Part shown: in pieces, positions 21,770-29,476 of the stretch
How positions within the stretch are numbered: the stretch's first letter is position 1
Layout of the letters: every line of letters begins with the position of its first letter
Source: Coprinopsis marcescibilis
Taxonomy: Eukaryota > Basidiomycota > Agaricomycetes > Agaricales > Psathyrellaceae
DNA length: 64,000 nt
Direction: 5' to 3'
NCBI GenBank assembly: GCA_004369085.1
Contig: ML210169.1
Location: 181,505 to 245,504, forward strand
Program-made: the position numbers and the translations under genes
Notes under the pieces: generated by a model
The model's database searches: none
Told to the model about the DNA's origin: nothing
Seen by the model: the letters and a program-made list of their open reading frames with translations, nothing else

Positions 21770-22684
21770 GGTGGATTCTGGAATGATTTCCTCCCTAGAC
21801 GCAATGAGGAATCAAGCTGTGGACTGAGTAGCAGTTAAGGTGCACAAGCAGGCGAGGCTGTTGACGGCGACGATTGCAACACCGTTGGCATCTGATACCG
21901 ACTAATTATTGCCGGAATATTGGATGACATGGGTCCGTCGGCTTCCGGTGGTAATCGTAGATAGATTTCGTCGCGAACGCGCCCACGTCGTGACTGCAGC
22001 ATAAATCGGACAAAGAGTGGGAGAGGGTGGGGGACACCGGCCGCTCGCTGTCGCTCAGAAAACCCAATAATTTAACATAGGACTTCGGCCGGAGGTATTG
22101 CGAAGTTGTGTCATGCAAATTATCAGTCCGAGGCTCATCGGCACTGATCCGCTCGGGGCGGTACGTTGCTCCATAACGGGATGCCAAGGAGAGTAAATCC
22201 ATGATAACCGCGACGAGCGCGCGTGCGTCGAATGCCGCCCACAAACTGTCAAGCCATCGAGTGAAAACCAATGAAATGTTCCCAGTGTTCGTATGTAAAA
22301 TGTCCTACCTGGAACCCTCTACCACAGTAAACATTAATTTATACCGCTAGAAAGGAAACCTGCCCCGGAGCAAACAAACCGAAAAAGACCTAGACCGTTG
22401 GGCGCCCTTTCACTTCCGAATAAGTAATAATTCGTCGTACTAAGTACGAGTAAAGGGTCGGTTGCCTCCTCTGATGGTTAGCTTATTCACAAGGCGACAG
22501 ATGCCATCTTTCGCGCCCGATGTATACGGTAGTCATTCTCGACTCTCGACATGTGCGCCGAAGCTTGAATAACAAACACCCCGGGTTGTTTGTCCTTTTT
22601 CTTTTCCTTACTCCCCCTGCGCTCCGGGAATCCCGCCCTCAACACTCCTTTACAATCCACACACACACAGCATAGGCAGCAGGA
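21770..22684. other. intergenic, promoter of paralogue A
   Basis: Divergent interval between the small membrane protein (minus) and paralogue A (plus). It holds the shared element at 22496 described separately. A minus-strand frame of 121 codons (22271-21906) was seen but not supported. Confidence 0.4.
22496..22511 (+). promoter_or_regulatory. shared upstream element of paralogue A
   Basis: GACAGATGCCATCTTT, 189 bp before the start codon of paralogue A. The core AGATG-C-CATCT is an inverted repeat. The identical 16-mer lies upstream of paralogue B, and a near match lies upstream of C. Confidence 0.55.
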
Positions 22685-24042
22685 ATGCCTAGAATCGATG
22701 ATACCTCATCAGAGATCGTCTATTCAACCGGCCAATGGCAAACAAGTCAAGGCGATTCTCGTCAATATCAAGGCACTTCACATTTCACAACCGTAGTGAA
22801 CGCAGAAGCGACAATCGATTTCAGAGGTCAGTCACTCGTTGGAACTTTCTTTGCGGACTTTAACATGCACCTTTCGGCGACCAGGAACTAGGATACGGGT
22901 GTATGGAACCAATCCAGGGTCTGGAGGTACAATCGAAGCATTCTTTACACTCGACAATGTCGAGATCCTTTGGAGGAAAACCAGCGACGGCCGGGCTCAA
23001 GATATGTTTTGGGAATCTCCAACTTTGACCAACTCACCACACACCTTGATTGTCCGAAACTCTGGAGGATCTCAAGTTCCTTTCCATCTCGATTTCTTTG
23101 ACATCGAAGTCCCCGGGTCACCGGCTACCGAACCACCTAATACACCTGATACACCTAATACACCTAATGAACCGACACCTCCTTTGCCACTAAACTCGCC
23201 GGTGTCAACCCCCAGAGCTGACCCTTCAAGAACGGATTTGCCGACAGTAAACCCTCCGTGCGTCCACATTCTGCTGTTGCTTGGAGACTAATCTTACGCG
23301 ACTTCCTCCAGTGCCCAAACACCTTCAACGGGACAAGACTCACCTGACCTGCCCATCATCTCTCAGGCACCGACCAACGACCGCGACTCTTCGAATAACT
23401 CTAACGGCGGAAGCATCACGGTGACAGAAGTTTCGACTCAGGTCAAACCCGTCCCTATCTTCGAAACAAACGAAAGCTCCAAAGGGAACATCTCTGGTAC
23501 CAAAGGGGGGCTCGAAACTGGCGCTATCGTTGGAATCACCATTGGAGCACTTGCTTTAATTCTACTACTGGGGATCTTCGTGCTCCTGCTCAAGCGTCGA
23601 CGAAAGAGGCTGGACAAGGAGGCACGCGGTAGTAGTGACCTAGTATACCAAGCGGGGCCAGGTACGTCGTTGGTTTAATTTGCCTGTGATTGAATGTTCT
23701 CATTATTCTTGCCGTCCTACAGAACCCTTCGATGTCGGTATACCACAAGCCGGAGGGCTTGTGCATGAGCGCAAAACTTTGATTATGGCTCAAGCTTCCG
23801 CCGGGGTTGGCGCTCCTGTTCGCAACAGCGTTTTGTCCGGAAATACTGGTAGCACCAACTCGGATGTTAACGTTGGCCGTCTGTATACAAGCGAGAAGTC
23901 AAGTGGTCTCACAACAAATGGCTTGCACTCTCGGATGTCAAGTGAACAATTATCCTATGTGACGGACGCACCTCCAGCATACACTCCGAGCCGCGATGAC
24001 ACTATCATCGAGTCTCGTGAAGGAGACGTCACCCGACCCTGA
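22685..24042 (+). CDS. leaderless beta-sandwich single-pass protein, paralogue A
   Basis: Member of an Agaricomycete family whose proteins open with a short M-x-x-(V/I)-DD sequence. Exons 22685..22826, 22885..23257, 23312..23661, 23723..24042; 394 aa. The ectodomain (residues 1-140) reads MPRIDDTSSEIVYSTGQW, IDFRGTRIRVYGTNPGSGG and LIVRNSGGSQVPFHLDFFDI, probably a galactose-binding-like fold. A Pro/Thr stalk with TPDTPNTPNEP follows, then TM LETGAIVGITIGALALILLL, stop-transfer KRRRKR and a cytosolic tail ending SYVTDAPPAYTPSR with a PPAY motif. There is no signal peptide, and an in-frame TAG lies at 22673, so the N-terminus must be exported by the TM signal-anchor unless a 5' exon exists. First gene of a tandem trio with B and C, sharing all three intron positions. 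Confidence 0.8.
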
Positions 24043-24775
24043 TTGGCAGCTGATTGGCCTTCAGCGTTGAGCTGCGGACGTAATATGCCTCCGCCCTTAC
24101 ACCGACCACCCCGATCCCTCCCCCAAGCCATAGAGCAGATAACTGTATACTGTAACTATTACTCTACACTCATTTCCATCGCTTACTATTTGATAATCTG
24201 TAGTCCTGATCTGATGTCCGGGTCAAGATTCCCAAAAATACATTGCATGTATTCTGAACAGATCTTCAGGCTTTATCCGGTCGCCTACCTGCATATGCGG
24301 TACCATCTCTGGATTGCGCAATCATATATCTCTGGTATCATCTGGGGCCGACTCGCTATGGCTCGATATACTCTGATAAGCAATGCACCCGTTAACGGAC
24401 CCGGAACCATAAAAGCGGCGCGACGACTATCCCATGTACTAAAGCATGTTACAATGTGTAGTCGCAAGCCGACATGTCGTACGGACTACCATCCGTGGCA
24501 CCCGTATGCGTATGTATCGTTTGGTTCTTGATGGATTATACAGTTGAACTGACAGATGCCATCTTTGGAAAGATGTGGGCAAACCATCTACTGGCTGGAC
24601 CTAATGATGGTATAGGGCACGACGGACTTTCTTGGAATTGACGATGTGGGCGGCTGCGGCGCGCTTTCTCTTTTCTCATCCCTTCCACAACATTTGGCTA
24701 CTCTCAGCGTTTTCGGAAAGTTTCTTTCCTAGTCACTCTTTTATTTAAGTATCTGCGTCTACGCAGGCAAGTCAA
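24043..24775. other. intergenic between paralogues A and B
   Basis: Contains the A 3' flank and the B promoter with the shared element at 24551. The in-frame extension at 24043-24531 has no coding features. No other gene was seen. Confidence 0.5.
24551..24566 (+). promoter_or_regulatory. shared upstream element of paralogue B
   Basis: GACAGATGCCATCTTT, 225 bp before the B start, identical over 16 bases to the element of A. The preceding bases AACT also match the C copy. Confidence 0.55.
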
Positions 24776-26353
24776 ATGCCTATAGTAGACGATGTCGACT
24801 CCCGAATCATTTATTCCTCGGGTTGGCAAACCTCCAGCGGTATTAGTGGGCAACGTGAAGGAACCTCTCATTTCTCTAACACGCCAGATGCCACAATCAC
24901 GGTCAATTTCAGAGGTGAGGACCGAACCCTGGAGGTCATCGAATGATTATTTCCTTGCTGACAATGCCACTCTCCATGTTACCTAGGGACTGGCATCCGA
25001 GTGCGTGGGACCAATCCTGGAACACACTCAGGACAAAGGCTTTCAGCCCGAATTCTCTTGAATGGTGCAGAGGTCCGAACTATAGACCTGAGGGGCCACT
25101 CTTCAGCATTTTACGACGAACACTTTTACGACTCCCCGCGACTTGAAACTACCAGAGACCACCAGCTCGTCATTATAAATACCAGCTCTGGGGTACCTTT
25201 CCATCTCGACTATCTTGACGTCGATGGTGAAATCATTGGATCCCAACCTGCCACGTCTCGTCCACCCACTCCTACACCCAACCGACCCTCATCACCTCCG
25301 GCGCCCACCAGTCCTAATCCTCCGTGAGTGTGCTCAGAGCACCTACTGCGTACACATGCTTACTTCAGGGCAATCAATAGGGAGGTCAGCACGCATATCG
25401 TTACGAGAGTTGTGACCGCTGTTGACACACAACGGCCGTCAGAGTCCTCAGACAGCCCGCCAGAAGCATCAGTTACTGTTGGTCCTGTGCGCTCGGTCGC
25501 TGGTTCCTTGGAGGAAAGCGGAAGTCTTTCGAGCTTTATTTCACTCCCTTTGGCCAGGCCTACGGATAACAGCGCAGTTACTATAACTTCAATCGAAGTT
25601 AGAACCAGTATATCCGTTCTGGTCCCTGGTGATACTGGGATCACAGGCGGCATCGGAACTAACGCAGCCGGTACACGCAAGAGGCTTGATGTTGGTGCGA
25701 TTGCGGGCATAATTATTGGCTCCATTGCTTTACTTGTGTTGGTAGGTGCTCTGTTGGCACTTTACTACAGGCGTCGCCGCCGACAACGGGAGGGGAAAGG
25801 GAAAGACGCAGAGAAGGTATCCATGTATCAGGCTGGTGGCGGCCTGAACACGTCAGGTACGTTAAGCCGCTATTTAAACTCATCCGAGCGCTCACAGCCC
25901 ACAGACCCGTTTTTCAAGGTTACTCCTTTCGATGCTGGGAGCGTACTGCCAGTGGTCGACCGTAAAGCTGCTATACTCCCCAAAGGTCCCTCCTCAAATG
26001 AACGGCCATTCCACCGCCTCGACGATGGAGAGATGTCGGAAGTCTCAAGCCCGCCCGTCCCGTCCGCTAGCACTACCTTTTTCACCGCTGCCCCAACATT
26101 AACGCTCGACTTCCCGAACGAGAAATCGACAGGATTGATGGATTCTATGCAGTCCCCGTTTGCTGACCCTGGCGGCTCTGGAAGCCAGGCAGAAGAACAG
26201 GCGACCTTGGTTTCGCCTACTCGTATCACCATGGCATCGCGCTACTCGACCGGGGTCTACTCGTACGTAACTATGGATGCACCACCTGCCTACACACCTG
26301 GTCGAGACTCTGCCTTCATCGCGGCTGGAGACACTACTCTGGCACGGGCTTGA
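24776..26353 (+). CDS. leaderless beta-sandwich single-pass protein, paralogue B
   Basis: Exons 24776..24914, 24987..25323, 25369..25856, 25905..26353; 470 aa. The ectodomain starts MPIVDDVDSRIIYSSGWQTS and continues TVNFRGTGIRVRGTNPG and VPFHLDYLDVDGEII. The stalk is Pro-rich (PTPTPNRPSSPPAPT), followed by a Ser/Thr-rich segment. TM is LDVGAIAGIIIGSIALLVLV, with basic RRRRRQR inside. The tail contains KAAILPKGPSSNERPF and ends YVTMDAPPAYTPGRDS, keeping the PPAY motif. Intron 3 is only 48 nt and free of stops, so retention would insert 16 residues without breaking the frame. An in-frame TAA at 24746 limits any N-terminal extension. Upstream it shares the GACAGATGCCATCTTT element with A. Glycan or surface-ligand sensing is a guess from architecture. 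Confidence 0.8.
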
Positions 26354-27882
26354 TTACAGTCCACTCACGACCGTCCACTCGTTTAATCCATGAAATTAAT
26401 CTCTGCCCTTCTTCCCAACCCTGGTCCCCGCTGTGACCATAACGCTTGACACGTACTTGTTGTAACTGTTGGAATGCACAGACCTTGCTACTTAGGAGGC
26501 TTAATCTGTTTGATGTACATACTTACGGCAATATGTACAGCGTACATACTTATCATGACCTGCCAGGCGCGGGGGCTACTACAAAGATGTATTTCTTGTA
26601 AGGTGCATATTATGCCTGGCTACTTGGGAACTGCTGCGCATTTTCTTGGGCTATCAGCGTATTGCAATACACTTTTTATCACTACAACAGATTTTGAGGC
26701 GCGAAAGCGCTGGGTTGACAAGGACTGACATATGATTCGCGGATAAATTAGATCAAACTTCTCTGTCAGTGGTCAGGTAATAGTCATGTCCGTTGCGTGC
26801 GCGTCTTCAGCGTCTAATTTGTATTGCACAGGTTGAACATCAACCATACAATCACGCAGATCATTCCGTTGACTATCATTTCAGGGGCTGGATCCCGGCT
26901 CATGGAGAACTGCGAAAGCACTAGTAATGGTGTTTACTCACATATTGGGCAAATACTTAAGTATCTGTTTGAAGTGAGTCGCAAGATTGTGGCGTTTTTG
27001 GTTCCGTTGAGAACGGCTCAGACTCTAAATCGGTCGAGTAAAGCGACTACGCGGCCTGTTCACGCCGCCGTGGCAAAAAGACCTTGAAACCGTGAAACAT
27101 TTCCAGGCACAAAACATAAAATGGGTGGCACTGACGATCTCTTGAAGCTCTTTTGCTCACTCTGGGACAGTGAAGCTTGCTAAACTAGATGAGCCTGTGT
27201 TGTCAATGAATGAACCACGGAGACCTGTGGGATACCGGTCAGACCTCAGCGATGAGTCACCGAAGTACTTAGCATGCAATCGGTTCCATTGGTTCCGTCC
27301 ATGGATGCAGAAATGTTTGCCGGGCTTGAGACTCGAAACCTCGACTCGGAGGATCAGCCAGAATTGAATCTCCGCGTCTCTCCGCTTGAATATTGCGATT
27401 TCTTCTTTCTTAATCGTTGACCAGTCGTCCTTTCCAGTTTCATTGGAACGCTGCTCGGGCCCCAATACTTATTGAACTGCATAGATTCAAGACGCATTGA
27501 CTTGTATCGCAGACTAGTCGCCAGAAACCTGAGCACATATGCTGCTTTTGCAGTGGTAATGCCGATTCAGTGCCCACGTAATGATGATCTCGGACAACTG
27601 TGTATGTTTCATGACAACGGGCGCTGGCTTTCAGGGGATTCACGTCGTCGAATATCGTGAGTAGAAGACCGCATAAGATGCACTTCTTGGCTGATTCACA
27701 ACAAGGTCCTAGCTAACTGACAGATGGCATCGGCTCCATGGGTGCTGCGGCCAACTACGAAACCCCACAGAGAGAACCTTCCTCACCTTCCTTCTTTCCA
27801 CCGTGCTACCACCCTCACCACAACACATTCTTTATTTACAGTCATTCATTTACATTAACTCCACTTATAGTGGGCAATATAT
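26354..27882. other. intergenic between paralogues B and C
   Basis: A 1.5 kb spacer. Short frames on both strands (up to about 100 codons) show no domains or paralogue remnants. The right end holds the C promoter with the shared element at 27719. Confidence 0.45.
27719..27733 (+). promoter_or_regulatory. shared upstream element of paralogue C
   Basis: GACAGATGGCATCGG, 164 bp before the C start. It matches the A/B element except at the central base and the end, and is preceded by AACT as in B, giving AACTGACAGATGSCATC in common with B. Confidence 0.5.
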
Positions 27883-29476
27883 ATGCCTACCATCGATGAC
27901 AACTCGAACCAAATTGCCTACTCGTCGGGGTGGCGAACGACAAGTGGCGTGTCAGGCCAACACCAGGGAACGTCCCACTACTCCATCACTCCGGGTGCTA
28001 CTATAACGATCACGTTCAGAGGTAACTACTCTCACAGTGGCTCTTAGGCGGGGAACCACCCCTGACACTTTTCCTGTATAGCGATCGGTATTCGGGTTTT
28101 TGGCACCAACCCTGCGACGGACAACCATGGGGTAATTGAAGTGGACTACGTTCTAAACGGGAGATCACAGCGGTGGACAAAACAGGCCTGGGATACTGCA
28201 CATTACCACGAAAGGTTCTGGGACTCCGGAAACTTACAAGAGGGCCCAACGCACACGTTAATGATTCGCAACGTCGGGACCCAGGCCCCTTTTCACCTAG
28301 ATTATTTCGAGGTTGATGGGACTGTTATCGCTCCGGCAGTACAGACTCCCGCTCCTACTCCTACTCCTACTCCTACTCGCACCCCGACACCTACGCCCAC
28401 TCCTACTCCTACTCCTACTCCTACTCCGCGGCCAACGCAGCGACCTCAACCAGAGCAGCCAGAACAGCCAGAACAGCCAGATGATGATACCCCTTCAAAT
28501 GGAGGCGACGCTCCCACAAGGAACATGTTCGTGTAGTATCCTTTCTGCAGTCCCTCTTAGCTGATCGCCCATATTCCCAGAGTAACACAGACTGTAACCG
28601 ACACGGCAACAGAAAGTGTCACTGAGTCGGTTTCTGGGCGGGGTGGATCCGCCGGATCGCGTCCGTCGATGTCTGCGTCAGTCGTAACCTCGGAAGTCGT
28701 CACAACCGATGCAAGGGGACTGACCGTCACCCAAGTCCAAATCCGCACGACTTCTGTCGCCATTGTGACCCCGAACGAAACCATCATTAATCCTGCGGGT
28801 TCACTTGCCAATCAAGGTATAAGTGCTGGGGCTATTGCCGGGATTGTTCTTGGTACACTCGCATTCTTAGCGCTCGTCGGTGTTGTTATTGCGTTTTTTA
28901 TCAGGCGTCGCCGAATAGTTAAGTCCCGCAAGCGACTCTCCAACTATCTGAACAACCAGTCGAGAGGTGAGGCTCAGGCAGGTGGAGCGAGTAATGTACG
29001 CAACCATGGACTTGGTACGTTCTCGGCAGCTCTGTTCCACGAGGATATTTCTGAATTCATTGAATCAAATAGACCCCTTTGTTTCGACCCCAACGTCCGC
29101 CGAGTCTGGGCTTCTTCCGCCAGTGCCAAATGAGAAATCTGCCATTCTCACACGAGGGTTAACAAGCAATGACCATGCATTCCGTCAACTATCAGAAGCT
29201 GAGAGATCAAACGAAGGCTTAATAACAACTGCCCCATCGGTCATTTCTAGCAGTAACAACAACGCCCATGCAACAATGTCCTCACTCACCTCATCGGGGT
29301 CCAACTACTCAACCAACCAGAAATCACTGTACTCGCCGGATCCATTCGTCAGTGGCAATCTACGAAGTTCGACTGGGGGCCTTTCTTACGCGCTAAGCGA
29401 GGCACCGCCTGCGTATACAAGTGTTCGGAACTCTGGTGCTGCTCAGGAGGGCAGTGGGTCAGCACCTCGACTGTAA
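27883..29476 (+). CDS. leaderless beta-sandwich single-pass protein, paralogue C
   Basis: Exons 27883..28021, 28082..28526, 28581..29014, 29073..29476; 473 aa. The ectodomain reads MPTIDDNSNQIAYSSGWRTT, TITFRAIGIRVFGTNPATDN and APFHLDYFEVDGTVI. The stalk is a Pro-Thr tract from a hexanucleotide repeat, then a Gln/Pro/Glu repeat and VTQTVTDTATESVTESV. TM is ISAGAIAGIVLGTLAFLALV, with RRRRIVK inside. The tail carries KSAILTRGLTSNDHAF and ends ALSEAPPAYTSVRNS. Intron positions and phases match A and B; the third donor was chosen as GTACGT at 29015, as in both paralogues, over an earlier GTGAGG. An in-frame TAG at 27868 rules out a longer unspliced N-terminus. Last of the trio; about 0.8 kb separates it from the MARVEL-like gene. 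Confidence 0.8.
28351..28428 (+). repeat. CCTACT hexanucleotide tract coding Pro-Thr repeat
   Basis: About 13 imperfect Pro-Thr units (CCTACT with CCGACA and CCCACT variants) inside exon 2 of paralogue C. A second short repeat of Gln-Pro-Glu units follows at about 28450-28480. The tract keeps the frame and forms the extracellular stalk, so its length may vary between strains. Confidence 0.9.

Follow-up and report, generated by a model that had tools for sequence, protein, structure and literature searches.

Leaderless Membrane Proteins with Predicted Jelly Rolls and PPxY Tails in Coprinopsis marcescibilis: A Gene Trio and Its Genome-Wide Family

We describe a tandem trio of genes, g1, g2, and g3, at positions 22685 to 29476 of a 64,000-nucleotide stretch of DNA (the window) from the mushroom Coprinopsis marcescibilis (assembly GCA_004369085.1, contig ML210169.1, positions 181,505 to 245,504). 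The three proteins share one layout: a predicted N-terminal β jelly roll, a stalk rich in Pro, Ser, and Thr, a single transmembrane (TM) segment, and a tail carrying a PPAY motif. They appear to start at a Met that no leader precedes, and such starts recur across a large family in the same genome. Our preferred reading, to which we give a probability of about 0.55, is that the trio are surface proteins inserted by a reverse signal anchor, with a glycan-binding head and a docking site for a Nedd4/Rsp5-type ubiquitin ligase. Gene structure, the family-wide leaderless ATG, the basic inner flank of the TM segment, the recurrent PPxY, and the presence of ligase genes carry this reading, along with a modeled fold; on this basis the N-terminus would be exposed at the surface, and the proteins may bind a glycan, engage a ligase, and act as sensors.

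Gene Architecture of the Trio

All three genes lie on the forward strand, and unprefixed coordinates are those of the window. g1 (22685..24042; exons 22685-22826, 22885-23257, 23312-23661, and 23723-24042) encodes a spliced product of 394 residues, g2 (24776..26353; exons 24776-24914, 24987-25323, 25369-25856, and 25905-26353) one of 470, and g3 (27883..29476; exons 27883-28021, 28082-28532, 28581-29014, and 29073-29476) one of 475. The spliced models are open frames, each with three GT..AG introns at common positions and in phases 1, 2, and 1. An alternative acceptor is possible for intron 2 of g2, and several donor and acceptor choices keep the frame at introns 2 and 3 of g3. A first-pass annotation of this DNA had given the coordinates, a common start sequence (MPxxDD...YSxGW), shared intron positions, one TM segment with a basic flank, and PPxY tails, all of which our analysis bears out.

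The jelly-roll domain, delimited in g1 and g2 by alignment among the paralogues and with the family, is drawn from two exons in each gene (22685..23113 in g1, 24776..25228 in g2, and 27883..28321 in g3) and is 45-49% identical between pairs. Pro, Ser, and Thr make up 43-46% of the stalk that follows, which in g3 includes a forward-strand 6-bp tandem repeat of 12.7 copies (28352..28427) encoding PT repeats; shorter 9-bp repeats occur in the stalks of g1 (23134-23168) and g3 (28450-28481). None of the three proteins contains a Cys. Pairs are 28-32% identical over the stalk and 26-37% over the tail. Strong divergence of the stalks had been noted earlier; the divergence is real, yet the tail has diverged equally, and we therefore reject the idea that fast-evolving stalks set these genes apart.

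Hydropathy places the TM core at 23535..23591 in g1 (ITIGALALILLLGIFVLLL, followed by KRRRKR), 25700..25756 in g2 (IAGIIIGSIALLVLVGALL, followed by RRRRRQR), and 28843..28899 in g3 (IVLGTLAFLALVGVVIAFF, followed by RRRRIVKSRKR). Lys and Arg account for 8 of the 17 residues after the TM segment in each protein. Ahead of the core stand 246, 269, and 284 residues, respectively. Behind it come 129-182, so that the tail cannot be called short, as it had been. The PPAY motif lies 19 residues before the end in every case (23971..23982 in g1, 26282..26293 in g2, and 29405..29416 in g3).

The Leaderless Start and Its Recurrence across the Family

An in-frame stop lies just upstream of each ATG (22673..22675 in g1, 24746..24748 in g2, and 27868..27870 in g3), as the first-pass annotation had noted. 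The stops alone do not exclude a 5' exon, because YAG triplets (Y, C or T) that could serve as acceptors occur from the stop to the ATG in all three genes: three in g1, one in g2, and one in g3. In g1 and g3 the stop is itself a TAG whose end is a possible acceptor; in g2 an acceptor-like CGCAG ends at 24766. A scan of the 700 nucleotides upstream, using donor-like GT and introns of 40-150 nucleotides, yielded three candidate joins for g1, of which one has a start of moderate hydrophobicity (hydropathy peak 1.37, donor GTGCGC, 123-nucleotide intron), and no joins for g2 or g3. The CGCAG at 24766, the strongest sign that g2 might hide a further exon, was rejected, as no coding exon fits within 700 nucleotides.

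The claim of a leaderless start is nonetheless borne out by its recurrence throughout the family. When six domain queries were run on the organism's own genome (36.3-Mb assembly, 448 contigs), many members emerged, whose proteins have either a single domain or two and whose genes often lie in tandem clusters. This census is a lower bound: two queries gave 73 and 37 matches, of which 30 each were excised, and the matches of two further queries were listed only. Of 88 excised loci, 52 were analyzed, the other 36 lying in the window or repeating the same places. Before starts were counted, hidden Markov model matches with E > 0.5 and exon-1 matches starting after profile position 9 were removed; the first exons of loci L051, L072, L073, L082, L085, and L087 stand outside the count. 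Outside the window, the 52 loci yielded 42 different exon-1 segments of first domains, and in 41 of these an in-frame ATG precedes the DD motif by 3-18 codons. Only L019, an oxidase whose start resembles a signal peptide, departs from this pattern. Since the queries themselves began at Met, a mild bias is present; it is addressed by internal second domains, where no start is needed and such an ATG occurs in only 2 of 12 cases. With the trio included, 44 of 45 first domains examined have the leaderless start.

Met is followed by S, A, T, G, or P in 37 of the 41 starts, and the upstream stop is at most 10 codons away in 22 of the 44 genes with the ATG (trio included). Sixteen of the 44 contain no YAG from stop to ATG, and in eight the YAG-free interval extends from the stop to the DD motif. 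These eight genes, none of which belongs to the trio, leave no canonical acceptor to which a coding leader exon could be joined; absence of a cleavable signal peptide is thus established at the strict DNA level for them alone. At L055 and L052 the stop directly abuts the ATG and there is no AG of any kind, and L055 also carries a TM segment and a PPSY tail. Hydropathy over the first 35 residues peaks at 1.02 or less in the 31 members scored, versus 2.44 in L051 and 1.82 in L019. A database protein agrees: P0004 (Coprinopsis marcescibilis, 328 residues; Agaricales, Psathyrellaceae) equals the frame of L078, a paralogue in this assembly, minus two stretches, save one residue at the second junction. 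It starts at the same leaderless Met as we chose for L078, and its first junction falls at the trio's intron position.

In a tree of 44 domain sequences the trio forms one clade with local support of 0.987. This single clade, and the recurrence of the leaderless start in the family, place the pattern beyond chance. The trio had been described as a local family, which holds in that it is one small clade, but it is a branch of a genome-wide family and not purely local. Elsewhere, the interval C2:1043533-1073973 (C, contig) holds many family matches in ∼30 kb, and most of those read belong to the two-domain type. C81:50729-59433 and C138:54511-58717 (L072, L073, L079, L009, and L081) hold a divergent subfamily, in which ED(S/T) replaces DD a few residues after M in the three starts detected; a TM segment is present in 5 of 5 members and PPxY in 4 of 5 (not L009).

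Topology of the Membrane Segment

We surveyed TM segments and tails in 47 genes, in three frames and up to 1300 nucleotides downstream, having dropped two places with less than 700 nucleotides downstream. Behind the last domain, 45 of 47 genes show a hydrophobic segment, which was not found in the oxidase L019 or in L056, and at least three Lys or Arg occur within 17 residues after it in 42 of 45, as they do in the trio. For two of the other three, L047 and L018, the survey picked the wrong segment; the proper TM segment of both has a basic flank. Charge thus supports the orientation proposed by the first-pass annotation, with the N-terminus outside (N-out). Two relatives bear on the same question. 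L051 (C83:121980-122252) has the same domain, with cysteines in it, followed by a TM segment and a PPGY tail, all behind a clear signal peptide, and so serves as a ready control for members that have no leader. L019 (C2:971517-971882) has the domain in one open frame, with the usual intron absent, fused to a glyoxal-oxidase-like enzyme (PF07250) behind the signal-peptide-like start. Furthermore, 13 of 63 exon-2 domain segments hold a Cys pair, all in the first domain of two-domain members, where the pair may form a disulfide; this would fit an oxidizing lumen. Taken together, the basic flank, the signal-peptide-bearing relatives, and the Cys pairs favor an N-out arrangement.

PPxY Tails and Ubiquitin Ligases

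Downstream of the TM segment, 32 of 47 genes show a PPxY no more than 45 codons from a stop, compared with 4 of 47 in the antisense of the same stretches; some of the sense matches may be in the wrong frame or in a neighboring gene (e.g., L057). The motif would lie on the cytosolic side of the single TM segment, as judged from charge. The genome encodes Nedd4/Rsp5-type ligases at two loci, C30:146330-149025 (L089) and C14:243603-245401, each combining three WW domains with a HECT domain. The family gene L018 (C30:144956-145906, PPTY tail) is convergent with the WW/HECT gene on C30, less than 1 kb apart, a neighborhood spotted post hoc that proves nothing alone. An (E/D/Q)PF tripeptide also recurs behind the TM segment in the tails of g1-g3, L018, and L078; it is perhaps an endocytic motif but too short to weigh.

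The Predicted Head Domain and Its Relatives

Comparison of predicted structures with galactose- and carbohydrate-binding folds, the check proposed with the first-pass annotation, returned a fold of that kind. Two predicted models, that of g3 having been made with intron 1 unspliced and thus retaining it as a 20-residue loop, match the jelly rolls of CBM35 and the CE2 N-terminal domain at 5-22% identity among the rows listed. On these models the head has the β jelly-roll fold of CBM35/CBM6, which suggests binding to a glycan or to the wall. At the sequence level the domain is remote from known families. No CBM35/CBM6 family profile was listed against the trio at E up to 1, and the profile of the CE2 N-terminal domain (PF17996) gave no match either; with its relative P0005 that profile scores 20.6 bits, below the cutoff of 27.9. 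Residues 1-134 of g2 found no homologue among 91 candidates from a set of 5.8 billion proteins, and an alignment of five proteins found three homologues in the same set, one from the same species. Weak Pfam matches (podoplanin, TM_ErbB1, Giardia VSP, and others) were set aside, as they lie on the stalk, TM segment, or tail. NCBIfam returned no family for P0004, whose UniRef name, starting "receptor protein-tyrosi", fits no feature found, there being no kinase feature, and was probably transferred. P0005 and P0006 are distant proteins from other sources that carry the domain, in one case behind an N-terminal membrane anchor and in the other near the C-terminus; the latter protein also has a PD40 match.

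The trio resembles several systems in part. Its fold is similar, in the models, to CBM35/CBM6 and to the CE2 N-terminal domain, but here it is not part of an enzyme. L019 shares the domain at its N-terminus and differs from the trio in its start, its enzyme domain, and the lack of a detectable TM segment. SKG6/AXL2 proteins (PF08693) are fungal single-pass membrane proteins; their profile did not match the trio, and a genome-wide search for SKG6 was silent, as were its controls. Neuregulin precursors (proNRG) are animal proteins with EGF, Ig, and kringle-like modules, and they are not known to have a jelly roll of the trio's kind. According to PMC6026874, the hydrophobic segment of proNRG is both TM segment and signal, which makes it a precedent for such a dual role in the trio and an exception to the rule of short N-tails. 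Rcr1/Rcr2, Commissureless, and PRRG have one TM segment and bind Nedd4/Rsp5 through cytosolic L/PPxY motifs (PMC5578492); their ectodomains are different, and only the layout is alike.

Proposed Mechanism and Alternatives

We propose that the TM segment, in the absence of a cleavable signal peptide, acts as a reverse signal anchor, combining targeting signal and anchor in one. It would carry the jelly roll and the P/S/T-rich stalk outside and leave the C-terminus inside. The CBM35/CE2-N-like head would then bind a glycan present in the fungal wall or in the environment, and the PPxY near the C-terminus would dock the WW domains of a Nedd4/Rsp5-type ligase, such that occupancy or clustering outside might lead to ubiquitylation, endocytosis, or signaling inside.

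A number of observations weigh against this proposal. Pfam has no family over the cutoff for the trio, a sequence search for relatives of solved structure found none, and the fold matches include Eph receptor and Cry-protein domains as well. PPxY was not found in 15 of the 47 genes within the survey's limits, the oxidase included, although wider stretches do show it in L047 and L051, both counted among the 15. Candidate canonical acceptors leave some room for a 5' leader exon in the trio. Lastly, PMC6269167 states that a folded N-terminal domain blocks its own translocation and that in human N-out signal anchors the translocated part is almost always shorter than ∼40 residues. That figure is typical rather than absolute, and the trio, with a fold predicted, departs from it. 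Its 246-284 residues clash with the usual limit, so that either the domain is held unfolded and inserted by a route for long tails or an assumption is wrong.

The same parts could make a wall tether or adhesin instead of a sensor, in which the jelly roll holds the membrane to wall or substrate, the stalk is a spacer, and PPxY sets turnover only. The CBM-like predicted fold and the P/S/T-rich stalk, with its repeats in g1 and g3, would suit such a protein; the long tail is unneeded for a tether alone, and we regard this alternative as unlikely. We regard it as quite unlikely that the trio are PY-motif adaptors that recruit Nedd4/Rsp5 to other, perhaps endosomal, membrane proteins and pick that cargo by its glycans: Commissureless and PRRG are not known to have such a jelly roll, and 15 of the 47 surveyed genes gave no PPxY. 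The single TM segment, PPxY near the end, and ligase genes do accord with this role, and the layout of Commissureless, Rcr, and PRRG is comparable (PMC5578492).

The other two alternatives concern how the proteins are read and oriented. A signal peptide encoded by a 5' exon that joins a YAG before the ATG would be compatible with the YAGs present in all three genes and with the one weak candidate join for g1, but g2 and g3 offered no candidate in the same scan, and the near ATG marks 41 of 42 first domains compared with 2 of 12 controls. Eight of the 44 family genes leave no canonical acceptor for such an exon, and P0004 begins at the leaderless Met; a hidden leader is very unlikely. Slightest of all is the chance that the N-terminal domain is cytosolic and the tail outside. 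Such an inversion would agree with the rule that an N-domain, once folded, is not carried across the membrane (PMC6269167), but it runs counter to the basic flank after the TM segment in 42 of 45 genes, would render PPxY useless, and sits poorly with signal-peptide-bearing relatives of the same domain and with the Cys pair of two-domain members.

Implications

The architecture of these proteins is real and well defined, and its parts (jelly roll, stalk, TM segment, and PY motif) are ordinary. The unusual aspect is that the leader is absent across a whole large family. The family is apparently unstudied, as we found no description of it among the titles and abstracts listed by our searches of open-licence PubMed Central text. 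The Coprinopsis genus offers good laboratory species.

A broader and more tentative suggestion, which we hold at somewhat less than even odds, is that signal-less translocation of a large lumenal part is a standing solution in dozens of genes of this mushroom, and probably of its relatives. The parts so translocated would be one jelly roll plus stalk (∼174-284 residues in four cases, namely, the trio and P0004, at ∼174) or two jelly rolls (one member, with roughly 320 residues ahead of the TM segment, an estimate after subtraction of intron residues). If this is true, the domain must stay unfolded until the TM segment emerges, and there must be an insertion route that tolerates long N-tails; such translocation would be the default for a receptor-like, glycan-sensing family wired to Nedd4/Rsp5.

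The accepted picture, as given in PMC6269167, is that N-out signal anchors have short, unfolded tails. The 44 leaderless starts among 45 make that rule testable, since in the cases measured the family has a predicted fold and at least 170 residues ahead of the TM segment, and they raise the question of which insertase and which holding factor are involved. On our reading, mushroom-forming fungi would also gain a sizable pool of candidates for surface proteins that bind glycans and carry their own ubiquitin switch.
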